Source: Bacillota bacterium
Lineage (GTDB): Bacteria > Bacillota > Clostridia > Christensenellales > Pumilibacteraceae
Direction of reading: 5' to 3'
Length of the DNA stretch: 64,000 nt
Assembly (NCBI GenBank): GCA_009777485.1
Contig: WRLT01000001.1
Location: 1 to 64,000, forward strand
Shown here: positions 7,074-42,565 of the stretch, piece by piece
How positions within the stretch are numbered: the first letter of the stretch is position 1
Layout: each line of letters opens with the position of its first letter
Program-made: the position numbers and the translations under genes
The notes under the pieces: model-generated
The model's input: only the letters and a program-made list of their open reading frames with translations
Database searches by the model: none
Told to the model about the DNA's origin: nothing

Positions 7074-9080
7074 TTATTGTAAATTCCATTGGGCGGTGTT
7101 GACAATCATCGTACCCCCCGCAGATTTTCTTGATACCTTTTCGGTAGATATGGTATACGTACCTGCGCGGCGGCCGCTTTGGTTGTACAGTGTTTCAAAC
7201 GAAACGTAGCCGTCTTTGTGGCTGCCGAAAGCCTCTGCAAGGCTGTCAAAGCCGTTTTCGCCGCTGCGTGCGTTTGCTTTGCCTATGGTTACGTTGCTGC
7301 CGATACGCACGGTTTGAACCGTAGCAAACGGCCTCTGGGCACTGCTGCCCTCTATCACTACATTATCGGGAATGGTAACTGCGGTTGATACGCGGTTAGC
7401 AAAAAGCACAGGCCATTCTATGCGGGTAACGGGTAAACCGCGCAACGTAGCGGGAATATTTAGGTTGGTGGCCTTGCCGTTGTATTTTAAAAGCACTATT
7501 CCCCTGCCGCTGCCCTCGTAGCATACCTCAAAGTCGCCCTCGGCGGTGATGTTTTTAGAAAACGCAGTGTCTGCAACATTTGCGCGGGACGGTATGCTTA
7601 GGCTGGTAAGCTCGTTTTGAAAAAATGCCTCGTCGCTGATTTCGGCAACCGTATCAGGCAAAATCACCGTTTTAAGAATGTTTCTATAAAAGGCGCGCTT
7701 GCCGATATGCGTAACTGCGCCGCCCAGTGTTATGCTTTCTATCCGATTTTCCGCAAACGCGCCGTCCTCTATGCGCGTAACACCGACGGGGATATGAATT
7801 GCGCCTTTAAGGGTGGCGGACGCAAAGGCGCGCTTGCCTATGGCGGTAAGGCCTTTTCCGAATGTAACAGAGTTTATGCGGTTGTCGGCAAAGGCTTCGT
7901 CTCCTATAAACGTAACGCTGTCGGGGATTACTACGGATAGGTTTAGCTTGCCTTGCAATGCTTTTGCCGCAATGCCTGTAACGGGAATTCCGCGAATAAC
8001 GGCAGGGATTTTTCCGTCCGAACTTATTGCGCCTGTAATGATAAGCGATTTTCCGTCTGCGGACGGTTTAACGTGGTAATTTTTGTCCGCGCTGCTTTCT
8101 GCCGCTACGCCGCCGCTTGCCTTAACAACGCCCGCTTTTCCAAAGGCTAAATCGCCCATAGAGGTAAGGCTGTCGGGGACAATAACTGCTGTGAGGTTGT
8201 TTCGGTTAAACGCCTTTTCCCCTACCGCAGTTAGGCTGTTGGGGAGTTCTACGGAGGCAAGTTGGTTGCGTTCGAACGCCGATTCTTCGATTGTACGGAC
8301 GTTTCTGCCCAGTGTTAAAGCGGTAAGCTTGTTGTTGTCAAAAGAACCGCGCCCGATAATTTCTACCGAATCGGGAATGATTACGGACGTTAGCGCGCAG
8401 TCTGAAAATGCCCACGCATCGATGTGCTTTACGCTGCTGCCCAGCGTTAAAGCGGTAAGCGGATTTTTGGCAAAGGCGCGGTCTCCGATAAAGGTAACGT
8501 TTGGGGGGATGGTAACGGCGGTTAGCTCGTTTTGTACAAAAGCCTTATCACCGATTTTTACGATGCCCGAACCTAGCGTTACGCTTGTAAGCTCGTTGCG
8601 CTCGAAAGCACCGTCGCCGATTTCGGTAACGCTGTTGGGGATTACAACAGAGGTTAGCTCGTTGCGCCTGAAAGCGTCCTCGCCGATAGTGGTTACCGTA
8701 TCGGGAATGGTTATTGCGGTTACATCGCAGTTATCAAACGCGTCTCCGATTTCGGTAACAGGCAAGCCGTTGATACGCGCAGGAATAGCTACGCTGCCGC
8801 CCTTTCCTGTGTAGGAGGTAATTTTAATCGAACCGTTTACCGTTTCAAATTCAAATTCGCTCTGCGCGCCGCTTGTTTGCGGTGCGCTGTGGGCGGGCGC
8901 GGCAGGGGCTTGTTTGGCTTGATTTAACATATTAAGCACGTTTTGCCAATGCTCAGGCTTATCCGCGTTAGGGTGGTTGGCGTGGCTGTTAAAAATAATC
9001 GCTTGCACCGGTGCGGGATACGTAGCCGCTATAAAATCCTTTAAGGCTTGCTTAGCTTTTGAAAGCGCGTCATCACTCAT
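7074..9080 (-). CDS. BspA-like leucine-rich-repeat protein without signal peptide
   Basis: 668 aa. From about residue 85 onward it is built of BspA/TpLRR repeats (LRR_5 family) of 23 residues, with phrases such as ITIPDTVTTIGEDAF and SVVIPNSVTEIGDGAF. There are two repeat blocks separated by linkers with GGSVAIPARINGLPVTEIG and GKIPAVIRGIPVTGIA. The first 70 residues form a helical, non-secretory region (ALSKAKQALKDFIAATYP), followed by a Pro/Ala/His linker. There is no signal peptide or anchor, unlike most BspA proteins, which are on the cell surface. The ATG at 9080 follows AAGGAG at normal distance. The likely role is a protein-binding scaffold; the partner is unknown. Confidence 0.88.
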   Translation of the reverse strand: MSDDALSKAKQALKDFIAATYPAPVQAIIFNSHANHPNADKPEHWQNVLNMLNQAKQAPAAPAHSAPQTSGAQSEFEFETVNGSIKITSYTGKGGSVAIPARINGLPVTEIGDAFDNCDVTAITIPDTVTTIGEDAFRRNELTSVVIPNSVTEIGDGAFERNELTSVTLGSGIVKIGDKAFVQNELTAVTIPPNVTFIGDRAFAKNPLTALTLGSSVKHIDAWAFSDCALTSVIIPDSVEIIGRGSFDNNKLTALTLGRNVRTIEESAFERNQLASVELPNSLTAVGEKAFNRNNLTAVIVPDSLTSMGDLAFGKAGVVKASGGVAAESSADKNYHVKPSADGKSLIITGAISSDGKIPAVIRGIPVTGIAAKALQGKLNLSVVIPDSVTFIGDEAFADNRINSVTFGKGLTAIGKRAFASATLKGAIHIPVGVTRIEDGAFAENRIESITLGGAVTHIGKRAFYRNILKTVILPDTVAEISDEAFFQNELTSLSIPSRANVADTAFSKNITAEGDFEVCYEGSGRGIVLLKYNGKATNLNIPATLRGLPVTRIEWPVLFANRVSTAVTIPDNVVIEGSSAQRPFATVQTVRIGSNVTIGKANARSGENGFDSLAEAFGSHKDGYVSFETLYNQSGRRAGTYTISTEKVSRKSAGGTMIVNTAQWNLQ

Positions 9081-29666: not shown

Positions 29667-30923
29667 TTAGCACCATTGCCCGCTAAGCCAGTCGGCACGA
29701 TTAAACAGCCAATCCCGCAAACATTCGGCGTCCTTTTTCCAATCGGAGGCGGCGGCGTGCGGACACTTCGCGTCCCAAAGGGCGAAATTTTTGCCGAATA
29801 AGTGCTTGTAGGAAGGTTCATTGATATAGCCGTTAAAAAAATCAATTAAAAATGTCTTGATTTTATCGGCCGTTTTCTGCCAGCGGCAGATTACCAATTC
29901 TTTAAATTTAGGCATCGCGTACAAATATGTAATAAATGGGCTAGGATTTTGCGTAGTGCCGTTAATAGTGTAAAAACCTTCGCAACCGCCGTTTACCGCC
30001 CAATCAAAATCCCACGGCGGGCCTGCGTACAATTTTCCGCCGCCGCGCTTTTTGTAAAGATAGCAGCCGCCCGCGCCGTAATCGGTGTTTTTATAAAGCT
30101 CTTGCAAAATTAAATTATCTACAAACGAAGGAACGTCCGCAAGACGGCTAAACGCTTCGTAATCAAGCGCAATTAGCGCGTCCGCTAGCTTTTGTGTTTG
30201 GCCTTTAATGCACTGCACCAAAGCTGCGTACTCAGTCGGGTCTGCACCGCGCGCTGAGGGCGATTTTATTATAAAATATTCTGCATTTTCTTCGTTACCC
30301 TTTATTCCCCGCGGCGATTTTTTTAAGCCCTCTGCTTGAAAGCGCGACTCAGGAGGCGCTCTTTCGGTATGCTCAAACCAAACATAGTTTAACAAATACC
30401 CCGTATCTATATCGCCCGTTTTGCACGAAATGTTGATTTTATGCTTTTCGGGGCGGACTTTTTCGGACAGCGTAAAAACACCGTGATAGCCGTTATTAAC
30501 ATACACCTCTACGGGGCGCGTGCGCACAGAATATTCCATATTAGTAAGCACCGCGCGCGCCAAAGAAAACGCGGAATCACTTTTTAACATACTGCCGTCT
30601 TTATTGTTCCAAACGCCCGCGATTAGGCAAAAATGACGCGAAGCGGGCATATCGAAAAGCTGCAGTTTTTTAATAAATTTAATGCGGTAATTTCGTTTGG
30701 GCGGGTCAGCCCTCCACGAACCGTACCCGCGCCCTTTAAAATGCGCGGGCAAAATATGTACGCCGTGCGTGTCGTGCAGCGTTACGGTGCAAGCTTGATA
30801 GGCTTTTCGCGTTACATCGCTTAATGCAGCCAAAATACCGTCTTTATATAACATGATGCGCAGCGACGGCAGTCGAACCGCCGTGCCGCGACATGTGTTA
30901 AAATTTGCAGAAAGTTTTTCCAT
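29667..30923 (-). CDS. CotH-family protein kinase
   Basis: 418 aa. CotH proteins are atypical kinases that phosphorylate spore coat or surface proteins. Visible motifs: FKGRGYGSWRADPPKRNYRIKF (the nucleotide-binding arginine/lysine region), GVFTLSEKV, and the C-terminal GPPWDFDWAVNG with the DFD metal motif. There is no signal peptide, unlike many secreted CotH proteins. It follows a GT92 gene by 6 nt, has no ribosome site of its own and is probably translated by coupling. It is last in the tail-locus block, so it may modify the tail fibre or the cell surface rather than a spore coat. Confidence 0.85.
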   Translation of the reverse strand: MEKLSANFNTCRGTAVRLPSLRIMLYKDGILAALSDVTRKAYQACTVTLHDTHGVHILPAHFKGRGYGSWRADPPKRNYRIKFIKKLQLFDMPASRHFCLIAGVWNNKDGSMLKSDSAFSLARAVLTNMEYSVRTRPVEVYVNNGYHGVFTLSEKVRPEKHKINISCKTGDIDTGYLLNYVWFEHTERAPPESRFQAEGLKKSPRGIKGNEENAEYFIIKSPSARGADPTEYAALVQCIKGQTQKLADALIALDYEAFSRLADVPSFVDNLILQELYKNTDYGAGGCYLYKKRGGGKLYAGPPWDFDWAVNGGCEGFYTINGTTQNPSPFITYLYAMPKFKELVICRWQKTADKIKTFLIDFFNGYINEPSYKHLFGKNFALWDAKCPHAAASDWKKDAECLRDWLFNRADWLSGQWC

Positions 30924-30929
30924 AGCATG

Positions 30930-31784
30930 TTACTTGGCAGATACGTCAAATTCCTGAGTCGGATAAACATCCTCACAGCAGCTATCCATTTCGGGATTGT
31001 ATTCAAAAAAGTCGAAGTAATTGCGGGCGTAATACGGATTGCATCTGCCGCGCCGCAGCTTTTCTAGCCACTCTTGATACGATTTTGTAAAATAGTGGTC
31101 TACGCAAATCATACGCGTAGTAGAATTTCCTTTCCACAAATGTCCTTCGTCTACATATTCCTTTTTTTCGTCTACCACGATAAAGCCCTCTATGGGGTGG
31201 CCGTTGTGAATAATCATGTTTTTCATAAGCAGCGGCTGCACAAAAACCTTGCCCATACCGTCGCACGCTTTTGAAAGCGACAGTGTATTAAAGCGTTCTC
31301 TAAGCGGCTGCGCGGTTTTTTCAACATGACCGTTTGCGCCGTACATGTTCCAAACTACAAACACGCCTGCATAGCTTTCGTAGTACTTTAAAAATTCGGG
31401 AACGCTTTGCCCCGTATTCATGCGAACCTGCTCATCTACGTCGATAAAGCCAATCCAGCGGCTTTCCTTGCCGTATTTAGCTAAGCAGTTGTTGTAGGCA
31501 TCTATCTGCGGATTAGGATACGAACCGCGCCAATTAATGACGGTTACCTTGCTCTTGTAATCCTTAGCATGCGCTGCAATAAAATCGGATACGGGCTGCT
31601 TAGACGAATGGTCGTAAATGTAAAAATGTTGAATGCCTTGCTTGATGTGCCATTTAAGCCATTCCTCCAAATACTCGTTTTCGTCGCGGATGATTAAGCA
31701 AAGACTGCAATAATACTTAAAGTCTAAGCTTTTTAACTCTTCCAGTTTTTCTTGTTTGATTTTTTCGATTTCTTTGTTTTCCAT
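30930..31784 (-). CDS. GT92-family glycosyltransferase (first copy)
   Basis: 284 aa. Reads as a GT-A glycosyltransferase of family 92: LCLIIRDENEYLEEWLKWH, IQHFYIYDHSS, WIGFIDVDEQV with the DxD metal motif, and VCDHYFTKSYQEWLEK-like end (VDHYFTKSYQEWLEKLRRG). The N-terminus is a coiled coil of Glu/Lys. There is no membrane segment, so it is cytosolic. It forms an operon with the CotH kinase downstream and the holin and second GT92 gene upstream. The sugar and acceptor are unknown. Confidence 0.88.
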   Translation of the reverse strand: MENKEIEKIKQEKLEELKSLDFKYYCSLCLIIRDENEYLEEWLKWHIKQGIQHFYIYDHSSKQPVSDFIAAHAKDYKSKVTVINWRGSYPNPQIDAYNNCLAKYGKESRWIGFIDVDEQVRMNTGQSVPEFLKYYESYAGVFVVWNMYGANGHVEKTAQPLRERFNTLSLSKACDGMGKVFVQPLLMKNMIIHNGHPIEGFIVVDEKKEYVDEGHLWKGNSTTRMICVDHYFTKSYQEWLEKLRRGRCNPYYARNYFDFFEYNPEMDSCCEDVYPTQEFDVSAK

Positions 31785-31813
31785 ATTAATTTTTTAACTC
31801 CGTTTTTTTGGTT

Positions 31814-32188
31814 TTAATTTTCGGGGGACTGGACGCTTGCGGTAATCGGCGCGATTTGGTCTTTCATGCGCTTATTGACTTCTTTGGTCAGCTTTACCAG
31901 TTCTTCTACCTTACCGCCTACCAGTGCGGCGTTAAAGGGCATGCCCTGCTCTATGGCGTACTGATTGGCTTTGGTCATAACAAATTCTTTTTTTTCTTGT
32001 CCGCTGTATTGGCTGAATGTTTCTGCTTGCTTAATATACGGCAGTACCGCATCACCGATTTTTATGGTATGCTCGGCAAGCCGCTTTTCCTTAACGCTTT
32101 TATAAAACTTAAATATAAACGTAATTGCCGCCGCTAAAAGCCCTACGGCCGTTGCCGTCAGCGATAAAATTACCTCTAATTTTTCCAT
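31814..32188 (-). CDS. Phage-type holin, LLH superfamily
   Basis: 124 aa with one N-terminal membrane helix (VILSLTATAVGLLAAAITFIF) and a long helical tail containing KKEFVMTKANQYAIEQG and VEELVKLTKEVNK, the signature of superfamily-6 (LLH) holins. It would open the membrane to release particles or lysin. In tail-like bacteriocin loci the holin follows the fibre genes, as here. No endolysin gene is adjacent. GGAG precedes the ATG. Confidence 0.8.
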   Translation of the reverse strand: MEKLEVILSLTATAVGLLAAAITFIFKFYKSVKEKRLAEHTIKIGDAVLPYIKQAETFSQYSGQEKKEFVMTKANQYAIEQGMPFNAALVGGKVEELVKLTKEVNKRMKDQIAPITASVQSPEN

Positions 32189-32212
32189 TTGCTTAAACTC
32201 CTTTGATTTAAT

Positions 32213-33517
32213 TTATTCTGTTTTTTGTGTAAGTCCCTTCCTTTTTCGCTTAAAGGCAGGATGCTCAGACGCAAAGCCCGCGCCGCCGTGCCCTTGCCAT
32301 ATTTGGAAGTCGGTGCGCTTATGCTCTCTTAAATCGGGGTTGATATCAAAAAACATATCGTATTTGCGCAAAAACACTACGTCTGCGCAGCCGCGCTTAA
32401 TTTTCCACTCCCATTCTTCAAGGCTGCGGGTAAAGAAGTGCTTAACCCATGCAACCTCGTAAATATGGGCGTTGCTGTCGGGTACGATGTCTAGCTTTTT
32501 ATGATGCACGTTTACCGTTAAATCTTCGTACAGCAGTCTAGAACCGTGCAGGTTAAAACCGTTAGGTTTTAGCAGCGACGGACGGAACATAGATTTTCCT
32601 TGCATGATGTCCGAACTTATGTAGCGTCTGGTAAAACGCTGCATAGAGGGCTTGTCCTCGTAATAAACTTGTCCGTTGGCGTCTAAGCATTCCCACGAAA
32701 AGTACACCTGTCCCGCAGCAGAAAACTCTTGCAAAAAAGCTTTAAGCGGTATATCCAGCATAAAAAACTCGTCTAGGTCTATATTCATTACCCAGCGCGC
32801 CGTGTCGCGGTAGTTTTTAGCAAAATGATACGCCGCCTCGACTTGTTGGAATTTGTAATACGTCCGCCACGGAAAAACGCTAACCTTTGCCAAATGCGCT
32901 TCGGATAAAACCGTTTTTAAAAATGCGGGCAACGTATCCTCGTCGTTGTTGTCGTATATGTAGATATGGTCTATGCCTAAGTTGAGGTGATGCTCTATCC
33001 ACTCTTTAAAATACGGCTCTTCGCGGCGCGCGATACACTGAATAACTAGCTCATGCGGGTAATTTTTTACGTTGTCCGCCGCAATCCACTCTTCTTTGCT
33101 GAGTGTAGGCGATAGTACAACGGGCTTAAAAACATTTAGCTTTTTTTCGATTTCGTTGATTTTTTTACGGCACGCCGCACGGTTATGCTTTACCGCTTGA
33201 AACTCGCCGTTATCTATTAAGCCCTCGAAATGCTTAATCGAAAGATAATCTGTATCGGCTAAATATTGCTCGCATTCGCTAAGCGTAATTTTATCACGCT
33301 CGGCAGTTTTTTCGTCTACAAAATCTTGCAGCGGAAAGATATTGCCCTCATCGTCGAAGGTGTAGCACGAAATATCTAAATACATAGGATATTCGTTTTT
33401 TTCGTTATCTTCCTCGACATCGAAATACACAATGGACTCATCGTCTTCGGTTTCGTCTGTTACATAAACCAACTGACGCGTATAGTGATACTCAATTTTT
33501 TTGTACCTTTGTAACAT
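32213..33517 (-). CDS. GT92-family glycosyltransferase with N-terminal extension (second copy)
   Basis: 434 aa. Residues 1-150 form an acidic extension of unknown fold (DETEDDESIVYFDVEEDNE). Residues 155-420 are a GT92 domain: LVIQCIARREEPYFKEWIEH, IDHIYIYDNND, WVMNIDLDEFF with the DxD-type motif, VKHFFTRSLEEWEWKI. It lies between the receptor-binding gene and the holin, inside the tail operon, with GGAGGAG before the ATG. It could glycosylate the tail fibre or a cell-wall polymer. It shares its core with the 30930 gene but is clearly not a recent duplicate. Confidence 0.87.
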   Translation of the reverse strand: MLQRYKKIEYHYTRQLVYVTDETEDDESIVYFDVEEDNEKNEYPMYLDISCYTFDDEGNIFPLQDFVDEKTAERDKITLSECEQYLADTDYLSIKHFEGLIDNGEFQAVKHNRAACRKKINEIEKKLNVFKPVVLSPTLSKEEWIAADNVKNYPHELVIQCIARREEPYFKEWIEHHLNLGIDHIYIYDNNDEDTLPAFLKTVLSEAHLAKVSVFPWRTYYKFQQVEAAYHFAKNYRDTARWVMNIDLDEFFMLDIPLKAFLQEFSAAGQVYFSWECLDANGQVYYEDKPSMQRFTRRYISSDIMQGKSMFRPSLLKPNGFNLHGSRLLYEDLTVNVHHKKLDIVPDSNAHIYEVAWVKHFFTRSLEEWEWKIKRGCADVVFLRKYDMFFDINPDLREHKRTDFQIWQGHGGAGFASEHPAFKRKRKGLTQKTE

Positions 33518-33535
33518 ATTTTTTTGTACTCCTCC

Positions 33536-34192
33536 TTAATTTTTTGGTTGCAGCCCGAAAATCAGCACGGACGCAACGGTATATTCTGTAGGCATAGTTC
33601 CCGTAAACTTTATGTGAAAAGTTTTATAATCTTGATTATGGGTTATGTTGTACGGGCCCGTATACAGCTGCGCTTGCGTGTTTACTATTCTGCATGCCCC
33701 TACGCAGCCGCTTGTACCCGCATCCGACACTAGCTGTCCGCATCCGCTTCCTCCGTGACCTGGCCCTGGGCAGCTGCCCGCACCATTTGCAAAAAACTGA
33801 TAGTACGGACGGTAGTACACTTGGGTAAAAAGTGCGGTATAGGGTTTGCTGAACGCAACCGAAAAGCTGCGCTGCGTGTGGCTTAACGGAAAGCTTACAT
33901 ATTCTACGGCAAGACTGTATTTTCCTGATACCCCGCTGCCGCTTAAAACGTGCTCGTCGTTTAAAATGTGGTCTGCAATAGCGGCGGATATAGCATTTTC
34001 GTGCGCGTCTTCTTTGCCGTCATGCTCGCCTATTTTGTCGGGTATTTCTTGATTATACAAGTGCAAGATGCCGTTAATGATTTTGTTTACATCGTCGCAA
34101 AACAACGCGTCTGACGACTTAAATTCTTTTTCGCCATTGATACTTCTCGCAGTAAACTCAGATGCGCTAAATTTTTTATCTTGTTCTGACAT
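33536..34192 (-). CDS. Putative receptor-binding (tail-fibre) protein
   Basis: 218 aa. The N-terminus is helical (DDVNKIINGILHLYNQE), as in the shaft of small receptor-binding proteins. The second half is beta-rich and ends with a segment holding Gly/Cys turns (GSCPGPGHGGSGCGQLV, TSGCVGACRI). No catalytic motif. The position after the hub gene and before the holin is where siphophage and monocin fibre genes sit. The Cys-rich stretch is unusual for a fibre and may bind metal or form disulfides. The family is not recognised, so the role rests on context. Confidence 0.6.
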   Translation of the reverse strand: MSEQDKKFSASEFTARSINGEKEFKSSDALFCDDVNKIINGILHLYNQEIPDKIGEHDGKEDAHENAISAAIADHILNDEHVLSGSGVSGKYSLAVEYVSFPLSHTQRSFSVAFSKPYTALFTQVYYRPYYQFFANGAGSCPGPGHGGSGCGQLVSDAGTSGCVGACRIVNTQAQLYTGPYNITHNQDYKTFHIKFTGTMPTEYTVASVLIFGLQPKN

Positions 34193-34329
34193 TTATTTTC
34201 TCCTTTTTATTTATTTTTGCAATACAAACACCTGTGCGGTTGCAAAATCCGCACGTCTTAAAAAACTTGACTTTTTTACTTATTTTTGCCGCGCGCTACG
34301 CGATACCTCGCGCGGGTTATTGTAGAAGT
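34193..34329 (-). promoter_or_regulatory. Two hairpins before the receptor-binding gene
   Basis: Minus strand CCGCGCG...CGCGCGG followed by CAAAAATAAG, then GTGCGG-ATTTTGCAA-CCGCAC, and AAGGAG before the ATG. This may partly end transcription of the hub gene and set fibre expression separately. Confidence 0.4.
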
Positions 34330-35352
34330 TTACATTACGTAAATTTGCTCGTCTTTATACTCGTCTCCTACCAGTACGGAGATTCCCTCCGACCGCATAA
34401 AAAACTTACCGCTGTTTTCTAATACAAACTCGTTGCCCGTAATCATGTATTTGGTTTCGATGCCGAATTTGTCCTCTAAAACTAAATAATCGCCGATTGT
34501 TATGCGCGGGTCGCCTTGCCAGGTGATTTCAAAGGTTTCGCGCCCGTGCTTGTAACGGCTGATTACATGCTTTGCAATGGATTCGGCTAAATCGTTTTTT
34601 GCAACCTCGCCTTGCGCGTTTTTTTCTTCAATATACGCATCGTGCTGCAATAGCGTATTTTCGGGATATGTGTACGAAAACTTTTCCCGCGATGCTACCG
34701 AATCTACGTCTGTTTCTATAATTTTTGCTGTTTTTTCTGCCTTTAACGCTCCGCCCGTAAGCTTATAGCGCCAGTTTAGAAAGTCGTACCTCCAAATAGA
34801 ACGCTTGCTGTCTTGAAAAGCGGCTGCTAGTTCCTTGTTAAAGCGGATACTATATTTTATCTCTTTGCCTACTATAATCGTTTTTATGACAGGCTGCGTA
34901 AATACGGGAGTCCATAAGGTAAGAGAGGTTTTCTCGTTAAATTTTCGCACTTTTGCAATCTGCACCTCGCATTCTAATTTATGGCGCGGTACGGTTATTC
35001 CGTCATCATCGTCATCATGATTACGCGTTTCATCCTTTAAAAGAATATCCTCATTTTCCCTTGCATTTTTTTTCAACTTGCCGTAAGTCCAGCTGTCAAA
35101 TTCGTCTTGCTTTTTATCATCTAAGCCTTTTTTTAACTCTTCTTTATCTAAATCCGTCGCTGTTTTAAAATCTGTTGCCACGCTAAACTGTCTTTCTTCT
35201 GTTATAATGTCGCACGGCGTTACCTCTACGTGGTTTATCACGTTTTTGCCGCTGTCTGTAATTTTTAAGCCGTAATACTCACCAAACTTTAACCGTAATA
35301 ACTTAGGTTTGTTGGTTGGTATTGCGTATTCAATTGTTAAATTTTGTTTCAT
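34330..35352 (-). CDS. Tail hub / Tal-like protein, C-terminal half
   Basis: 340 aa. It opens with NLTIEYAIPTNKPKLLRLKFG, which in single-piece hub proteins normally follows a segment like the end of the 36331 gene. The C-terminal part (IAKHVISRYKHGRETFEITW, RITIGDYLVLEDKFG, YMITGNEFVLENSG) is a beta-barrel of the kind that ends siphophage hub proteins. It follows the lipoprotein gene by 9 nt and has no ribosome site. The separation from its presumed N-terminal half by a lipoprotein gene with its own promoter suggests an insertion split the hub gene. Confidence 0.6.
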   Translation of the reverse strand: MKQNLTIEYAIPTNKPKLLRLKFGEYYGLKITDSGKNVINHVEVTPCDIITEERQFSVATDFKTATDLDKEELKKGLDDKKQDEFDSWTYGKLKKNARENEDILLKDETRNHDDDDDGITVPRHKLECEVQIAKVRKFNEKTSLTLWTPVFTQPVIKTIIVGKEIKYSIRFNKELAAAFQDSKRSIWRYDFLNWRYKLTGGALKAEKTAKIIETDVDSVASREKFSYTYPENTLLQHDAYIEEKNAQGEVAKNDLAESIAKHVISRYKHGRETFEITWQGDPRITIGDYLVLEDKFGIETKYMITGNEFVLENSGKFFMRSEGISVLVGDEYKDEQIYVM

Positions 35353-35361
35353 TATGTCTAT

Positions 35362-36087
35362 TTACCAAATATTGACAATTATTACCTCCGTTACGTTAGT
35401 TCTTAGCTCATTGGACAGAAAAACATAACCTAATACTCTTCTTGGGGTAGATGTGAAAACATAATTTATTATTGTATCATTGCTACCAAAGCTAGTATGT
35501 CCTAAATACTTTCCTGTTGAATCTAAGAAAGCTACCGAAACTTGATATCTAACTCCTGTTGCAGGAATCCGATTTTCAATGCTTATGACACTGAGTTCTA
35601 CGTGGGCATAGTGTTGATTTATACTATCAAACTCAAATGATGTTACTTGCAGTCCTGGAAAACTATGGTGTTTAGTAAGGTTAATTTGTACCGTTTCTTG
35701 AATAAAACCTCCTGTTGCATTTGCGATTTTGCTGCTAACGGTTATCGTTGCCATACCGATACCCCTAAATGTGATTAAACCGTTTGTGTCTACGGTTGCT
35801 ACGGCAGCACTGTTAGAAGTAAAGGTAATGTCTTCGCTTGTGGCAACACGCAATGCCTCGTCTACATACTTGATGTTTGCAAAAATTTGCGCTGTTTCGT
35901 CCATTCCCCAAATACTTGAAATGCTTTTGGGGCTTGTTACGGTAATGCTTTGCGCTACTGGATTAGACGTTGGATTGCCGTTTGGATTGCCGTTCGGGGG
36001 TTGGTCAACAGACCCACCGCAGCCTACAAACAACGCCATACCTAGCAAACACACTACACCTGCCATAATCGCGAACAACTTTTTCAT
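35362..36087 (-). CDS. Lipoprotein with Ig-like (BIG2) domain, cargo gene in tail locus
   Basis: 241 aa. The signal peptide ends ALFVGC. A Asn/Pro/Gly linker is followed by a BIG2 domain (SITVTSPKSISSIWGMDETA, ITFTSNSAAVATVDTNGLI, IGMATITVSS) and a beta-rich C-terminal region. It has its own promoter, a GGAGGT ribosome site and an AT-rich upstream region unlike the compact tail genes around it. This is how phage 'moron' genes look, cargo expressed independently of the structural operon. It may be displayed on the host cell, for example to shield the surface; that is inference. Confidence 0.85.
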   Translation of the reverse strand: MKKLFAIMAGVVCLLGMALFVGCGGSVDQPPNGNPNGNPTSNPVAQSITVTSPKSISSIWGMDETAQIFANIKYVDEALRVATSEDITFTSNSAAVATVDTNGLITFRGIGMATITVSSKIANATGGFIQETVQINLTKHHSFPGLQVTSFEFDSINQHYAHVELSVISIENRIPATGVRYQVSVAFLDSTGKYLGHTSFGSNDTIINYVFTSTPRRVLGYVFLSNELRTNVTEVIIVNIW

Positions 36088-36165
36088 TTTTTAAACCTCC
36101 GTTTGGTAATCTTACTATAATATAGATGCCATCATATAGATTAATGCTACATTTTGACAAGATAT

Positions 36166-36195
36166 AGTATACAATAAGTAAATACAAAATGGCAA
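36166..36195 (-). promoter_or_regulatory. Promoter of the cargo lipoprotein
   Basis: Minus strand TTGCCA (36195-36190), 18 bp, TATACT (36171-36166). Three tandem GAATTATTTT-like units lie just upstream (36208-36236). Confidence 0.65.
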
Positions 36196-36330
36196 GTGTT
36201 TATATATTGAATTATTTTGAATTATTTTGAATTACCTTGTTTACTTTTGGATTACCAATATTTGTAATTTTTGGGTAGTGCATTTTACGCATTGTGTTTA
36301 CCATTTTTTGGAAATTTTTTAGGTTTTACT

Positions 36331-37920
36331 TTATAGTTGCTTTATTTTATCTATAATCAATACGTCCTCCCTGTTAATATAGGTGTGCACTAAATCTATA
36401 TCGCACATTTTTTGCAGCGCTGCCCAAAGACTGGATTCGTCTAAATAGCCTTTTTCTATCACGCGGTTTTTCATAGCGTTTTCTGCAACCTCTGTGATTT
36501 TATACAGCATGCTGTTGTCTATATGCGGCTCGTCTAGCCCTACTGTTTCGGGGCCGCCTTTCGCAATTAGCTCGGCGCGGCGCATAATATCCCAAGCCAG
36601 GTCTAATTTTTCAATTTTTTGCAGATTTTCATCTACCAGTCTTTTGTAACCAGGATAGGTGTTATCTTTAAAACGGTGTAATCTATCCTGTGTTTTAAAG
36701 CGCGCTACGCTTTTAACCTCGTCAAACTCTATATCGGTGATGTAGTGCGTGGCAAGCAGCACGTACGGGGGGTCGGTGGGTGCAAACTGTACAGGGTTTA
36801 AATCTTTATCGTTTACCGTTCCTTTATCTTCGCCGCTTTCGCGCGTGGGCGGAGTAAAATAATTATGCGCCTTTACAAAATACTCTACCTTTAAGCCTGT
36901 TTTTAATACGTCTGCAAATTTTAGCGAATCAAACATTTTATCTAGGTTGACTAATGAAATTTGACCCGTGTTGCTTTGTACGCCGTAGTTTGCTTTGCCG
37001 ATTCCGCTGCATAGGTATTCGTTTACGGAAAAGCTTTGCAGCATGTCGCGGCTAGTGTATTCGGTAATTCCGCCCGCTATATCTGCATTGTGGAAAAAGT
37101 ACAGGATTTTTGCGCAAGTAGGCTTAGTGTAAAATGTTTCGTTCGTTCCTCCGGCATTTTGTAAATTAATTGCAGTAGGGTTTAGCGTTGCTGCCTCCTC
37201 TACGCCCCATCGGGTTATGCGTAGCTCTACCCGCGTGCATAATCCGCGATTTACCTTAATGGAAACGCGTGAGGCACGGTTGTTTGTTCTGATTTCTTTA
37301 AACCTAAGTTCCTCTTCGCCCTTATCATTAAGCCCGTACACGCATAGACTGAAATCTATGGGAAATTCGTTTGCGTGTGCGCAAATCAGCCAGTTGGCTA
37401 TGCTGTGCGTACCCTCAAAGGTATATAGCAGCCGTACAGGTTTTTCAAATATGCCGTTTTCATTGCAAGCTGCATCGCTCATCCAGCTTACTGCCGAATC
37501 TTTGCCGATTAGATTTAAGCCGTTATTGCCAAAGCGGGTTTTGCCGTCTAGGTGGAGGTACGCCGTGCGTACTTGTGTGTCGTTTGCGCTTGTGCGCCCT
37601 GCGTTAAACGCCTCGGACGAATACAGTTGGCTAAACGCATCAAAGGAGTTGTTTAGCGCGTTAAAGCGTATGACTGATTTTTTTTCGTTGCGCATGGGCG
37701 TATTGCCGATGTTGAGGTCTAATGTATTGTTATTAAAATTCGTTGCGTCGCTAAACTGTCCTGTTCCGCTTTTACTCTCGTCGAAAAACTTTTTATCTAC
37801 CGGCTCGTAATGCACCTTTATTTTATGTTCTAGGGCGCGCTGGGCGTATAAATAGTCGTTAGGCTTGCGGAGTATCGGGTTAAGTTCGAACTCTATTTCT
37901 TTAAATGCTAAATTTGACAT
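36331..37920 (-). CDS. Tail hub / Tal-like protein, N-terminal part
   Basis: 529 aa. A long beta-rich protein with an inner galactose-binding-like segment (residues 100-260: KTRFGNNGLNLIGKDSAVSW, VELRITRWGVEEA) followed by a hub-like part: NYGVQSNTGQISLVNLDKMF, YVLLATHYITDIEFDEVKSV and near the end LWAALQKMCDIDLVHTYINR then EDVLIIDKI. The last block is typical of the middle of siphophage hub proteins, not of their ends. It starts 4 bp after the distal tail gene. Together with the 34330 gene it would make a normal-length hub. Confidence 0.65.
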   Translation of the reverse strand: MSNLAFKEIEFELNPILRKPNDYLYAQRALEHKIKVHYEPVDKKFFDESKSGTGQFSDATNFNNNTLDLNIGNTPMRNEKKSVIRFNALNNSFDAFSQLYSSEAFNAGRTSANDTQVRTAYLHLDGKTRFGNNGLNLIGKDSAVSWMSDAACNENGIFEKPVRLLYTFEGTHSIANWLICAHANEFPIDFSLCVYGLNDKGEEELRFKEIRTNNRASRVSIKVNRGLCTRVELRITRWGVEEAATLNPTAINLQNAGGTNETFYTKPTCAKILYFFHNADIAGGITEYTSRDMLQSFSVNEYLCSGIGKANYGVQSNTGQISLVNLDKMFDSLKFADVLKTGLKVEYFVKAHNYFTPPTRESGEDKGTVNDKDLNPVQFAPTDPPYVLLATHYITDIEFDEVKSVARFKTQDRLHRFKDNTYPGYKRLVDENLQKIEKLDLAWDIMRRAELIAKGGPETVGLDEPHIDNSMLYKITEVAENAMKNRVIEKGYLDESSLWAALQKMCDIDLVHTYINREDVLIIDKIKQL

Positions 37921-37924
37921 ATGT

Positions 37925-38497
37925 TCACCTCTCTAAAAAAACCAGCGAAACGCCCTCGTAGCCTATCATAAGCGGCATGGCTTGCTTAGACGGGCTATCG
38001 GATAACACGTCAACCTCTTGCGGGGTGTGGTATACCACTACCTTTCCTGTATATTTGCCCTCTAAGTATGCATCCATTTCGGCAAGCTGCGGCTGTAATT
38101 TGCCGTTTTCTGCTTGATAAAACGCATCGTTAGGGTTTAGAGATTTTATTTTATAATACAGGATAGGCTGATGCTTATCGTTAAAATTAATGCACAGCAG
38201 GTCAAGCAGCGATTTGTATTGCTGCTGCGTAAGAAACTGCCAGCCCACCGTTACCTTTCGCTTTTTATTGACGTACTCTAAAAATAAATCTCCTTTGGCG
38301 TTTTTTTCTTGATTAGCAATTACCGTACCTTCCCAGTCTACCGATGTCGGGTTTGGTATGTTGTTTTTTGCAAGTGTTCGGCTGTCTACGCCTTGCGATT
38401 CAAAAGAAACCGCTCGTGAAATATTGGAAAAAAAGATGGTTCCAGGCGTTATTTCTATCATTTTTAAGCTGTCTGTGTTGTTTATCATGTTGCTCAC
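37925..38497 (-). CDS. Distal-tail-like protein
   Basis: 190 aa. It follows the tape measure gene (4-bp overlap) and precedes the hub, the place of the distal tail protein in siphophages. The sequence contains RKVTVGWQFLTQQQYKSLLDL and DKHQPILYYKIKSL, beta-strand pairs like those of phage tail-adaptor proteins. No clear family name; the position gives most of the support. Confidence 0.6.
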   Translation of the reverse strand: MSNMINNTDSLKMIEITPGTIFFSNISRAVSFESQGVDSRTLAKNNIPNPTSVDWEGTVIANQEKNAKGDLFLEYVNKKRKVTVGWQFLTQQQYKSLLDLLCINFNDKHQPILYYKIKSLNPNDAFYQAENGKLQPQLAEMDAYLEGKYTGKVVVYHTPQEVDVLSDSPSKQAMPLMIGYEGVSLVFLER

Positions 38498-40239
38498 CTA
38501 TATACGGCATCTGCGCGCAGCACGCCGTACCCTTCGTTATTTAATGCGTCCACAAAATCTCTTACGGTAGTTTCGGCTAGCTGACGGCCGTCTATGTGCA
38601 GCTGAACCGTAAGGTCTTTGCCGCCGCCTCCGCCGCCCGACTGATTTAAAGCACCCATGCCCGCTAATACCGCGTTGGCGATATCGGCTTTCATTTCGGC
38701 AAATTGAGGGCTTTCGCCTAGCGGTACTACAGCCTCTGGGTATCTGCCCTCGCCTACCATTGCCATAGTAGGGCTGTCTACTACGCCGCCCGTTGCCATA
38801 GCGGGTATTAATGTTTTAACTAATAACGCACCCGCGATTGCCGCCGCAACCGTAATTCCACCCATAATAAGGTTGGATAAAATGGCTTTCGCTGCCAACA
38901 GAGGATTGAGAATTGCAAGCTGCTTGCATTGATTTTTCATTGCGTTAGTTATTTTGTCTAGTCCTGTGGCTATTTTTTCTAGGAAAAATGACATAGCTAT
39001 CAGTATCAAAGCAAAAACGCCGAACGCAATTACAAAACCGATGCTCATAATTTCTTGAAGCTTTTGCATATTTTCTACAAACGGACCCATTTGCTCGTTT
39101 ATTTTTTCTAGACCCATTGCCATTAAAAACATGGCTACGCCCAGCAGAATAAACAATAATATCCCCCAAATGTTTTCGCCGATTAACGCCAAGCATTCAA
39201 TAAATGCGGGCATGATTTCTATTAGGGCGGTTAAGCCTAATGCAACGTTTACTAAGCCCTCGCCCGCTGCCTTAATCCCCTCGCCTAAAAGCCCTAAAAC
39301 AATAAGTATCCCTATAAATATCAACAATTCGGGCAGATACGCAAGAATGCCTGACATATTTATGGCCATTTCCAGCATAGCCGTACCCAGTGCAGGAAGC
39401 AGCGGAATAAGCATAGCAATCGCCGTAACAATGCTTTGTAAGCCTTCGCCGAAAACCGACATGGCATCGGCAATTGATTTCATTCCCTCGCCTACCGCTT
39501 GAATGGCCTCGCCTGCGGGCACTAAATCCTCTCCGATAAGCGAAAGCCCGTACAATGCCGCGCCGAATACCGCAATATGAGGTATGTACATAAATACGCC
39601 GTCTAACGCAACGCACATTTCCATAAAACCTTTTGCGGCCGCAGGAAGCGCGGTTGCAAGACCGTTTAGGGCGTCTACCGCCCCGTTAAGGCCCTTAGCA
39701 ATATCCATAACACCGCCGCCGATATCCTTAAAGCCGCAGCCGATATCTTTAAAGCCCGAACCTACGTCTTTCATACCGCTGCCGATATCTTTAAAGCCCG
39801 AACCGATGTCTTTTGCCGCACTGCCCGCCGCGCTAGCCGCGCCCTCGAAACTCGCGCTGATATTTGCAGTGATATCTACGACTTCTGCGCTGATATCACC
39901 GGTATTAATTTCTGTGTCAATAATTACAGCGGTTTGATTTCCGCTAAATTTATCCGCGCTTTTCGAAAAATTCGTTACGGATGTATTAGTGGTTTGAACC
40001 GTCTTTTGAAAATTATTGAACACTGCTTGCATATCGAGAATTTTTTGCACAAATAAGTCAAAATTAGAGGCTTTTGCAATCGCTTCTAATTTTTGAAAGG
40101 AGTCGATTGCGCCTTGCATATCCATCTTGCTAAGGTCGATGGTTATGTTATTATTGGTAGTCTTAATCTCTTGCTCTACATGCTTTGTAGAATAACTTTT
40201 ACTATTATCAATAGATTGATTAATTTGATTTTTAGCCAT
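38494..40239 (-). CDS. Tape measure protein
   Basis: 581 aa. An N-terminal coiled coil (SIDNSKSYSTKHVEQEIKTT) leads into repeats of KDIGSGF/KDVGSGF, then a middle with many hydrophobic helices (ILLFILLGVAMFLMAMGLEKI), then a Gly-rich end (ALNQSGGGGGGKDLTVQLHI) where phage tape measures carry the same VDSPTMAMVGEGRYPEAVVPL motif. This PTMAMVGE-GxxEAVVPL block is very common in siphophage tape measures. It sets tail length; by the usual 0.15 nm per residue that would be roughly 85-90 nm, a short tail. It overlaps the distal-tail gene. Confidence 0.88.
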   Translation of the reverse strand: MAKNQINQSIDNSKSYSTKHVEQEIKTTNNNITIDLSKMDMQGAIDSFQKLEAIAKASNFDLFVQKILDMQAVFNNFQKTVQTTNTSVTNFSKSADKFSGNQTAVIIDTEINTGDISAEVVDITANISASFEGAASAAGSAAKDIGSGFKDIGSGMKDVGSGFKDIGCGFKDIGGGVMDIAKGLNGAVDALNGLATALPAAAKGFMEMCVALDGVFMYIPHIAVFGAALYGLSLIGEDLVPAGEAIQAVGEGMKSIADAMSVFGEGLQSIVTAIAMLIPLLPALGTAMLEMAINMSGILAYLPELLIFIGILIVLGLLGEGIKAAGEGLVNVALGLTALIEIMPAFIECLALIGENIWGILLFILLGVAMFLMAMGLEKINEQMGPFVENMQKLQEIMSIGFVIAFGVFALILIAMSFFLEKIATGLDKITNAMKNQCKQLAILNPLLAAKAILSNLIMGGITVAAAIAGALLVKTLIPAMATGGVVDSPTMAMVGEGRYPEAVVPLGESPQFAEMKADIANAVLAGMGALNQSGGGGGGKDLTVQLHIDGRQLAETTVRDFVDALNNEGYGVLRADAVYR

Positions 40240-40245
40240 CTAGTA

Positions 40246-40575
40246 TCACAGCTCCTTTTCTAATTCTTTCAGTTTTTCGATATCCTTTAAGCCGTCTTCT
40301 AAGCTTTGCTTTTTGGCGTATAGCTTTTTGATAAGGTCGTTAGGGTTTTTGGCTTTTCTTCCGCTGTTGGTATAATACGCGGCATAGTATCCGGTAAAGA
40401 TTGCTTGCGCAATATCATTTTTTTGCTTTTCTTGAATCGTCGAAACGTAGACGTTAAATTCCCACAGTTCTAAATCCCAAACCTCGCGCGGCGTTAAGCC
40501 TGCAAACGCACCGCTTTTTATTACCTCTACCCAATCGAACCCTTGCTTGCTTGTAGCTCCCGATTGCGTTGCAGC
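40246..40575 (-). CDS. Tail chaperone extension made by -1 frameshift (gpT-like part)
   Basis: From the slippery site to TGA at 40246 the -1 frame has 109 sense codons and no start codon, so it can be made only as an extension of the 40527 gene. It reads ATSKQGFDWVEVIKSGAFAG, then LTPREVWDLELWEFNVYVST and a Lys-rich helical end (KKLYAKKQSLEDGLKDIEKL). The fusion would have 214 aa. This is the G/GT arrangement of lambda-like tails. The long product bridges tail tube subunits and tape measure during assembly. Confidence 0.85.
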   Translation of the reverse strand, partial: AATQSGATSKQGFDWVEVIKSGAFAGLTPREVWDLELWEFNVYVSTIQEKQKNDIAQAIFTGYYAAYYTNSGRKAKNPNDLIKKLYAKKQSLEDGLKDIEKLKELEKEL

Positions 40576-40889
40576 TTTTTTTGAATTCGGTCTTGCACCT
40601 CCTCATCGGATAGTCCTGGATACTGCAACGCATAAAAGAATTTTTCTAAGTATTCCATAAGGTCACCTATCCCCAAATACTCCTCGCACAAATCCATAAA
40701 AGCGGACTCGCTTAAATGGGCGTCCGCTTTGCGCGCGCCTACGTAAAGCAGCTTGATTTGCTGTTCGACTTTCATAGCCGAAACGGTATTTACAACCTCG
40801 TAAAACGATTTACTAAACGCTTTTTCTATTTCGCGGATAGTACCGAGTGTTGTTTTTACCTCGTAGTCTTTGTCTAGTTTGATAAACAT
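40527..40889 (-). CDS. Tail assembly chaperone (gpG-like, upstream frame)
   Basis: 120 aa, helical and acidic (VKTTLGTIREIEKAFSKSFY, MDLCEEYLGIGDLMEYLEKF). It lies between the tail tube gene and the tape measure, as in siphophages and F-type tailocins. At codons 103-105 the mRNA reads A AAA AAG (40581-40575), the most efficient known -1 slippery heptamer. Most ribosomes end at the stop at 40527; some shift into the frame described at 40246-40575. GGAGG-type bases precede the ATG. Confidence 0.85.
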   Translation of the reverse strand: MFIKLDKDYEVKTTLGTIREIEKAFSKSFYEVVNTVSAMKVEQQIKLLYVGARKADAHLSESAFMDLCEEYLGIGDLMEYLEKFFYALQYPGLSDEEVQDRIQKKLQRNRELQASKGSIG

Positions 40890-41008: not shown

Positions 41009-41401
41009 TTATACAGCAGGCGAATTCGGATATACTAATTCATCCGTACCCGAAATGCTAATGGCGATATTTCCCTTATCCTCGGCGGATAGGTCTACGC
41101 TTAACGATTCGATTAAGCCTGTGCCAGAAAATTTAGTAGTATTATTTAAGTAAAATTCGCATACTACTTTTGTGCCGTTATGCATAGCGTCAAATAAAAA
41201 CTTATGGCTTTCTGCGCCGACAAATTCAATCGCGCCGTCTGCGCTAGCCGACCAACCGTATTGACCCGCCATTTTATCCTTTGCGCGTTTGCCAAGCTCG
41301 GCAACCTCGATAAGCTCTACCGTATCCTCTACGCTCCAATTGCTGATGTAGGCAACCTCCGTAGTGCCAATTTTAATTTTTCCCGTTAAACCAGTATACA
41401 T
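41009..41401 (-). CDS. Major tail tube protein
   Basis: 130 aa. The tube fold is visible as GLTGKIKIGTTEVAYISNWSV, WSASADGAIEF and the end TGLIESLSVDLSAEDKGNIAISISG, close to tail-tube proteins of Gram-positive siphophages. Many copies stack into the tail tube. The 120-bp gap to the chaperone gene holds a small GCCCC-TTCG-GGGGC-type hairpin, which could lower downstream expression so that tube protein exceeds chaperone. Confidence 0.85.
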   Translation of the reverse strand: MYTGLTGKIKIGTTEVAYISNWSVEDTVELIEVAELGKRAKDKMAGQYGWSASADGAIEFVGAESHKFLFDAMHNGTKVVCEFYLNNTTKFSGTGLIESLSVDLSAEDKGNIAISISGTDELVYPNSPAV

Positions 41402-41424: not shown

Positions 41425-41784
41425 TTAATCTTTTTTTATAAATTTAAAGCTGACAGCAAGCTGAACATACGCATCGTCTTTCGATTCGATATCCTCATAC
41501 CCGCCGATTTGAGCAAATCCCGCAAGCTTAAACTTGTTTTTTACGGCATTTGCCATTTGTTCGAGCGTTTCATACTCGTCTCCGCGCAAAATTACTTTAA
41601 AAGCGCCGACTTCGGTTTTTCCGCCGCCCAAAAATCTTGCCGCACGTTTTTCGGTTTTCTCGTTTTCGGGTTTGTTAATAAAAACAATCTTACCGCAAGG
41701 GTTTTCTGTTTTTGGAAATTTTCCGGCTTTTACCGTAAAATCTACGCCCGCTAATGCGTCCAGAATACTTCTTATTACGCTCAT
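41425..41784 (-). CDS. Putative tail terminator / tail completion protein
   Basis: 119 aa with an alpha/beta pattern (GKIVFINKPENEKTEKRAAR, GAFKVILRGDEYETLEQMAN, AYVQLAVSFKFIKKD). It lies just before the tail tube gene, where siphophages encode the terminator ring that caps the tube and, in complete phages, joins the head. The family is inferred from position and size; no single motif is decisive. It overlaps the upstream gene by 4 bp. Confidence 0.6.
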   Translation of the reverse strand: MSVIRSILDALAGVDFTVKAGKFPKTENPCGKIVFINKPENEKTEKRAARFLGGGKTEVGAFKVILRGDEYETLEQMANAVKNKFKLAGFAQIGGYEDIESKDDAYVQLAVSFKFIKKD

Positions 41785-42344
41785 TTTTTTACTCTCCTGT
41801 TATTGATGTTGATATGGTTTATTATGGATTTGTGTAAAGGCTCACCAGACTTTACAGGTACTAACACGTACGCCGTGTCAAAGGATTCTTCAAACATATA
41901 ATGCTGGCTCTTTTTTAATGCAAGGACTTGTTCCTCTGCTTTCGGCACATTGCCGTCGTGGTCCAGATATAGTATTGAAAAATCTATCAAAGCCTTGACC
42001 GCAGTCAAGTTCTTTGCACGGTGCTGCGCAAGAATGGTTTCTACCTTAGATTCTACAAGGGATTTTTCAAGCTCATCGATGCGTATTTTTTGCGCATCCG
42101 CTTGGGCGGAGGTTTGAATTAACGCCTCCTTAGTATCTTTTAAACACAAGTTGACGCAATCAAACCTATGCTTAGGAATCATAAGGCTTTCCTGCGGCGA
42201 AAGTTTTGACTCGCCTGCTTTCTCTGCCTTCTGTTTGCTCTCATTTTTTTGCTCCATAACTGTTTCCCGTTCGGTTGGTATCGCGGACCGGCCGCGCAAA
42301 GGGTTTATTTTTAATATGCTGTCGCGCATATCGGGCAGATACAT
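41781..42344 (-). CDS. Phage scaffold-like (GP20-type) coiled-coil protein
   Basis: 187 aa. The middle is a coiled coil (KDTKEALIQTSAQADAQKIR, IDELEKSLVESKVETILAQH) followed by AKNLTAVKALIDFSILYLDH then DGNVPKAEEQVLALKKSQ and YMFEE. This second block matches the C-terminal pattern of Phage_GP20 scaffold proteins (LLD-x-L-DEDGNV-x-LKKSxxYLF). A scaffold in a locus without a capsid gene is odd: it may be a relic of a deleted head module or reused. The ATG at 42344 overlaps the stop of the regulator gene (TAATG); a later ATG (about 42257) is an alternative start. Confidence 0.6.
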   Translation of the reverse strand: MYLPDMRDSILKINPLRGRSAIPTERETVMEQKNESKQKAEKAGESKLSPQESLMIPKHRFDCVNLCLKDTKEALIQTSAQADAQKIRIDELEKSLVESKVETILAQHRAKNLTAVKALIDFSILYLDHDGNVPKAEEQVLALKKSQHYMFEESFDTAYVLVPVKSGEPLHKSIINHININNRRVKK

Positions 42345-42565
42345 TAAATAGCGGTTTTTCCTAGCAGCTCATCTAGCGAAATATCAAAAAAATCGGTTAA
42401 TTGGTGCAAAGCGTCTAGGTTGGGGCTTCTTCCTTTATGAATCCAATCGGAAATAGTCTGACGGGGTATATCGATATCCTTAGAGAATTCGCTTATACCC
42501 TTTAAGCCTCTTTCTTGGATTAGGCTTTTTAAGTTGTATGCAAATGTTTTTTGATGCTTTGTCAT
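42344..42565 (-). CDS. XRE-family regulator of the tail locus
   Basis: 73 aa, one helix-turn-helix domain (GISEFSKDIDIPRQTISDWI as the DNA-reading part), with C-terminal helix LTDFFDISLDELLG. It is first in the tail block and translationally coupled to the next gene. AGGGG precedes the ATG. It may repress or activate the tail genes. Inverted 10-mers TTTGTACCCC (42567-42576) and GGGGTACAAA (42662-42671) flank its start and could be operators. Confidence 0.8.
   Translation of the reverse strand: MTKHQKTFAYNLKSLIQERGLKGISEFSKDIDIPRQTISDWIHKGRSPNLDALHQLTDFFDISLDELLGKTAI

Follow-up and report, generated by a model that had tools for sequence, protein, structure and literature searches.

A phage tail hub encoded in two reading frames around a lipoprotein gene, and a possible role of the lipoprotein in self-protection

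We wanted to know whether two open reading frames (ORFs) separated by a lipoprotein gene encode a single phage tail hub and, if so, whether the divided hub is still in use or marks a disabled locus. The window analysed here is a 64,000-nucleotide stretch of contig WRLT01000001.1 from a Bacillota bacterium, and the features of the locus are collected in Table 1.

Table 1. Features of the tail cluster and of the divided hub, with the evidence for each
Feature	Position	Strand	Evidence
Holin-like protein (LLH type)	31814..32188	-	Phage_holin_6_1 1.1e-4, just under the Pfam cut-off
Downstream tail-cluster protein, function unknown	33536..34192	-	L065 homologue (3e-5) after hub and lipoprotein
Hub C-chain (340 aa)	34330..35352	-	Homology to intact hubs
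Lipoprotein gene (241 aa)	35362..36087	-	Pfam Big_2 1.4e-5; full-length relative in G224
AT-rich spacer (25% GC)	36088..36330	-	Promoter-like site and lipoprotein ribosome site
Hub N-chain (529 aa)	36331..37920	-	Homology to intact hubs; AlphaFold model compared with gp44-like hubs
Dit-like distal tail protein	37925..38497	-	Matches the gene between tape measure and hub in relatives; PHROG 1194 (function unknown) 2.8e-6
Tape measure protein	38494..40239	-	PHROG 12798 tape measure 6.8e-10; L084 4e-138
Tail assembly chaperone-like	40527..40889	-	PHROG 2115/183; kept in all related clusters
Tail tube protein	41009..41401	-	Phage_tail_2 2.1e-5; PHROG 1407 6.7e-13; 75% identical in L076
Tail terminator-like	41425..41784	-	Weak Phage_tail_terminator_6 (E 0.07); syntenic homologues
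Scaffold-like coiled-coil protein, first of the tail cluster	41781..42344	-	Phage_scaffold 8.9e-8; PHROG 194 4.2e-8; syntenic homologues
Small XRE-type regulator	42344..42565	-	Sequence read by eye; similar L066 gene (3e-6)

The first-pass annotation had proposed that the 36331 ORF is the N part and the 34330 ORF the C part of one hub, and homology bears this out. Both products match the tail hub family PHROG 13879 (571 profile positions) in order and without overlap, the first at positions 83-158 (E 0.005, a weak match) and the second at positions 440-533 (E 7e-5). Ordinary members of this family are single continuous chains, whereas the window hub consists of two ORFs with the lipoprotein gene between them. 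An alignment to an uninterrupted hub had been named as the check on the proposal, and uninterrupted homologues in the same bacterial order, 592-629 aa long, cover both parts end to end. The match to the N part extends over about residues 60-370 (E 5e-15 to 1e-9), that to the C part over about residues 430-594 (E 6e-5 to 3e-2), and the joined N and C sequence passes through the break with no residues missing. The opposite case, in which the homologues are always separate and unrelated proteins, fails because the homologues are single proteins. Judged by homology, the two ORFs together encode one phage tail hub, the first its N-terminal and the second its C-terminal part.

The N-chain contains an N-terminal hub barrel, a CBM32/discoidin-like insert (model residues ~85-286) and an alpha/beta domain, and the C-chain a domain inserted in the hub (about residues 1-205) and a C-terminal barrel part (about residues 206-340). 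The break is located mid-hub, after the alpha/beta domain and at the N-edge of the inserted domain. The last window residues before it are ...YINREDVLIID, with ...FVDRQNRIVI as the counterpart in relatives, and the end of the alpha/beta domain reads WAALQKMCDIDLVHTYINREDVLIID in the window and WDALQEIANAGLCKVFVDRQNRIVI in relatives. The C ORF starts ~30 aa upstream of a conserved NVINHVEV / NSVSVEY stretch; its 340 codons are open and retain conserved hub residues. L084, whose tape measure protein is among the closest to that of the window (4e-138), has a hub uninterrupted at this site. The AlphaFold model of the N-chain (mean pLDDT 60) was compared with solved structures by VIA-align 2 and matched 9g8s_q (Z 12.4, rmsd 3.0, 171 aligned), the diffocin protein 8v3w_H (Z 11.1, rmsd 3.1, 171 aligned), Mu gp44 (1wru; Z 10.8, rmsd 3.0, 173 aligned) and the monocin tip protein 9j1k_L (Z 9.8, rmsd 3.5, 173 aligned). 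The N-chain fold covers only residues ~1-180 of gp44-like hubs, which are 311-325 aa long, as expected if the remaining hub is encoded elsewhere. The C-chain model was poor (mean pLDDT 45). The hub profile had no sequence match among solved structures, single-protein searches of the GenBank phage collection and IMG/VR gave no convincing close homologue, and the hub was absent from the same-genus genomes. Nothing equivalent to a split tail hub was found in the papers searched.

The genes around the hub are those of a phage tail. A Pfam and PHROGs scan of the cluster proteins, covering part of the small ORFs, recognised only tail genes apart from the scaffold-like coiled-coil protein; no gene for head, packaging or integration (capsid, portal, terminase, integrase) was recognised. 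The locus therefore looks like a gene cluster for a headless phage tail, probably a flexible one of the siphophage type. It is flanked by host genes, dnaB on one side and DUF4097/PadR on the other, and the same gene order is found in the clusters of related genomes (L065/L080, L076, L048/L082). The isolate codes, read as termite samples, suggest that the closest cluster relatives are mostly termite-gut Clostridia MAGs.

The window lipoprotein is made up of a signal peptide, the lipobox LFVGC, a Big_2 stalk and a C-terminal head of ~105 aa, and Big_2-type domains were the only ones found in it. The signal peptide and lipobox predict a lipid-anchored, surface-exposed protein, encoded here by a phage element. 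Its GC3 is 0.34 against 0.48 for the hub N-part. The annotation was right about a Big_2 lipoprotein with a ribosome site, as GGAGG is present at 36100-36096, ahead of the ATG at 36087. The promoter that it also assigned to the gene can be described as a good promoter-like site, TTGCCA-18-TATACT at 36195-36166, 5' of the gene, such matches being only mildly enriched in the region (15 against 8.7 +/- 3.1 in shuffles). The C ORF shares the frame of the lipoprotein gene and begins with an ATG 9 nt past its stop. As had been noted, no ribosome site precedes this ATG at the usual distance; a GGAGG occurs 32 nt upstream, within the lipoprotein gene.

Other possible traces of how the hub was divided were also considered. 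The sequences IKQL and MKQNL on either side had been taken as a footprint of the insertion, but a match of 7 of 9 nt is reached by 45% of random 30-nt hub pairs, and we attribute the resemblance to chance. No Rfam RNA element, group I/II intron or other, matched positions 33000-38500 at E up to 1, which gives no support to the idea that such an element splits the hub. Window repeats gave nothing meaningful as transposon ends.

We then looked at lipoprotein genes beside the hub in relatives. A hub profile search of whole genomes returned further full hubs and many headless C-parts. Within the related tail-cluster family, the hub or hub C-end has a lipoprotein gene directly beside it in 15 of 16 cases from 7 genomes (L065, L076, L087 A/B/C, L114, L115, L116, L117, L118, L120, L121, L122, L050 and the window), the sole exception being L123, which is without a lipoprotein. 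The L122 lipoprotein runs into a contig end, and several relatives' contigs stop inside the hub. As controls we used ordinary prophage hubs from IMG/VR, 33 of which had sufficient sequence downstream for a lipobox screen: none of the 33 has an adjoining lipoprotein gene, with the screen recognising 12 of 14 complete family lipoproteins, so that a few can be missed, and none is split. The lipoprotein is thus a standing neighbour of the hub in related headless tail clusters. Nothing equivalent was found in the papers searched for tailocin-linked lipoproteins.

The window differs from its relatives in how the two genes are arranged. L065, L076 and L087 have an unsplit hub whose 3' end is met by a lipoprotein gene on the opposite strand, with an overlap of about 4 nt in several cases. 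Contrary to this convergent arrangement, usual in the family, the window lipoprotein gene is on the hub's own strand and upstream of the inserted domain. The anchor Cys is invariant in 12 related antisense lipoproteins, which have a coiled coil in common, a collagen-like stalk in most cases and a divergent C-terminal head. Between these proteins and the window lipoprotein head no homology was detectable (hhalign probability 0.5%), so that a "same role" for the two types rests on position and layout.

The window's own junction was found again in G224, from another genus of the same family. G224 encodes a Big_2 lipoprotein homologous to that of the window (5e-29), which runs with a 10-nt overlap into a hub C-chain start (2e-13). 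The hub start is 47% identical to the window's, the C-chain is cut to 96 aa, and the junction lies downstream of rpoC with no tail genes. The window-type lipoprotein head occurs in 2 of 396 genomes of the order, the window and G224, both times beside a hub piece, and the window-type hub C-chain start is present in the same two among 74 genomes of the family. The common junction is therefore older than the window genome, or it was transferred between lineages as a unit. The moron-like insertion proposed by the annotation stands in that the hub gene is divided by the lipoprotein gene at a domain edge; the idea of a one-off cargo does not agree with the adjacency in the family or with the junction in G224.

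Several genomes carry orphan modules among housekeeping genes, each with a truncated hub C-part and an intact lipoprotein. One is found between mutS and mutL (L117) and another after rpoC (L050); L114 has a full hub that stands alone with its lipoprotein, away from tail genes. The hub pieces begin at varying points and measure 51-338 aa. All fully visible orphan lipoproteins are intact and have the lipid-anchor Cys, and no specific domain was found in those of L114 and L117. Such C-terminal modules, orphaned together with a partner gene, are of the kind found in polymorphic toxin systems. L087 holds a full hub and a headless copy of its C-part; the two are 96-100% identical in this part, with a dN/dS of 0.13. 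Identity drops to 35-67% over a stretch that takes in the final ~105 nt of the hub and the lipoprotein gene, and it rises again upstream of the latter. Since the drop spans both, the hub end and the lipoprotein differ as one block. Across nine modules, covariation of the hub end with the lipoprotein head was weak or none and not significant (Mantel r 0.14-0.37, p 0.05-0.27). The inserted hub domain is located mid-hub in L076 and in ordinary hubs and at the hub end in L065, L087 and L114-L116, and its shifting place indicates that the hub of this family was rearranged repeatedly.

We propose that the lipoprotein is a self-protection partner of the tail that moved inside the hub gene, and that the hub is made of two chains, a reading to which we give slightly less than an even chance. 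The lipoprotein would be a surface-anchored partner of the superinfection-exclusion or immunity type, which keeps the producing cell safe from its own tails or those of a sister; its position, its anchoring, its retention in orphans and the block-wise divergence all point in this direction. It would be made from its own promoter and kept when other cluster genes are lost. The hub would assemble from an N-chain providing the first barrel and the following domain and a C-chain providing the rest of the ring, as suggested by the break at a domain edge, by the open and conserved C-chain and by the age of the junction. Translation of the C-chain may occur by re-initiation 9 nt past the lipoprotein stop, which would explain its production without a ribosome site of its own. 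A broader reading, in which flexible tailocins have dedicated, diversifying hub-end immunity lipoproteins that spread as orphan protection modules in gut Clostridia, with a two-chain hub in one lineage, is more speculative and rather unlikely as a whole.

The main rival of the two-chain reading is a decaying cluster, in which insertion of the lipoprotein gene or a rearrangement broke the hub, the tail is dead and the lipoprotein is kept as protection against related tails. The orphans, in which lipoproteins persist while hubs decay, the C-chain without a proper ribosome site and the shortened C-chain of the sister case G224 all agree with it. However, the remaining ORFs of the window cluster are all intact, the C-chain is open over its whole length with conserved hub residues, and a junction held in common with G224 at this level of hub-start identity leaves time enough for stops to appear if the C-chain were untranslated. 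An open C ORF and a junction found in two genera speak for a hub in use rather than a disabled locus, and we hold decay to be unlikely, though it deserves serious weight.

The two other explanations concern the lipoprotein more than the hub. An unrelated lipoprotein gene with its own promoter could have been inserted by chance and confer some other benefit on the host; the promoter-like and ribosome sites, the lower GC3 and the AT-rich leader fit such a plain moron. It does not account for an adjacency that is family-wide and absent from ordinary prophage hubs, nor for the recurrence, in a second genus, of this lipoprotein next to this hub piece, and we find it very improbable; the survey of relatives had already made it unlikely. 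Alternatively, the dispersed hub C-parts could be a store of alternative hub ends, with a lipoprotein that is tail-associated or adhesive and has no part in immunity. Headless hub C-parts are present in four genomes, and the near-identical L087 copies with divergent ends, the low dN/dS of the headless copy against its full hub and the relocation of the inserted domain from mid-hub to the hub end in L065/L087 are in line with such an archive. Several pieces would nevertheless make poor donors, being too short (51-121 aa) or interrupted by a contig end or a stop, some are alone in housekeeping loci, and no recombinase or repeat system was recognised, which makes an archive quite improbable.

If the self-protection reading holds, a lipoprotein encoded at the side of the hub and kept with distant hub stubs would be a candidate for protein-based immunity against phage-tail weapons in Gram-positive bacteria. 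Specificity of and resistance to tailocins pass through the fibre and LPS, and the escape of producers and their kin is usually ascribed to surface sugars (PMC12090994). The split hub, for its part, would be an example from nature of two polypeptides that together form the ring of a tail hub.

Among known systems, the window cluster resembles the F-type tailocins (Listeria monocin, rhizoviticin) in being a headless, siphophage-like cluster with tube, tape measure, Dit, hub, holin and host flanks. It differs from them by a hub that is split, and permuted in relatives, and by the lipoprotein partner. Ordinary PHROG 13879 or gp44-like prophage hubs belong to the same hub family, and the N-chain fold matches them, but they are single chains of 590-630 aa with no lipoprotein neighbour. 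The closest likeness for the lipoprotein itself is Ltp of Streptococcus phage TP-J34, a superinfection-exclusion lipoprotein (PMC3952083). Both are prophage-linked, surface-anchored lipoproteins thought to act against an incoming tail. However, Ltp is encoded among the lysogeny genes of a complete phage, acts by blocking DNA injection and is composed of other domains, and by its description it is set apart from a gene that abuts or interrupts the hub of a headless cluster. Finally, as in polymorphic toxin and orphan immunity modules (Rhs, CDI, T6SS; PMC10539506), C-terminal ends are duplicated with their neighbour and dispersed as headless orphans, and in L087 the end diverges together with its partner gene. 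Unlike in those modules, the carrier here is a tail hub, in which no toxin domain was recognised, and the partner is a predicted extracellular lipoprotein.

In L048, one of the loci from related Clostridia genomes compared with the tail cluster of the window, a hub remnant with internal deletions (8259-8489) was found after the lipoprotein gene. Over 189 nt this remnant shares 98% identity with the hub lying upstream, and its hub sequence covers the position at which the window hub is split.

The domain inserted in the hub has shifted from the middle of the protein, its place in L076:5723-7756, to the C-terminus in three other loci (Table), a natural domain permutation. In the window, the N-terminal hub part (36331-37920) carries an inserted CBM32/discoidin-like domain at residues ~85-286 (VIA-align Z about 10, several CBM32 modules), possibly for sugar binding.

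In three loci the tail tube gene is present a second time, 3' of the hub, and these second copies have big additional C-terminal domains (total length 255-606 aa), with a weak YadA-head-like stretch in that of L076. Such a copy is absent from the window. Inside its tail cluster, 29667-33517 encodes two GT92-type glycosyltransferases, one with a close homologue at the equivalent place in L076 (1.7e-110), and a CotH-kinase protein.

Two orphan loci, each with a hub end and a lipoprotein gene, adjoin CRESS-type Rep genes, a possible vehicle for their dispersal. Hub/lipoprotein loci were also observed 3' of rpoC in two bacterial families (L119:13070-13999 and L050:8008-11589), perhaps a favoured site.

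Table. Coordinates of features in the related loci
Feature	Position	Match
Second tail tube copy	L076:9919-11739	
Second tail tube copy	L065:11348-12313	
Second tail tube copy	L116:3721-4488	
Hub, inserted domain C-terminal	L065:7279-9471	
Hub, inserted domain C-terminal	L087:1271-3460	
Hub, inserted domain C-terminal	L114:8297-10546	
CRESS-type Rep	L116:9260-10441	Viral_Rep PF02407, 1e-15
CRESS-type Rep	L121:9493-10536	Viral_Rep PF02407, 7e-16
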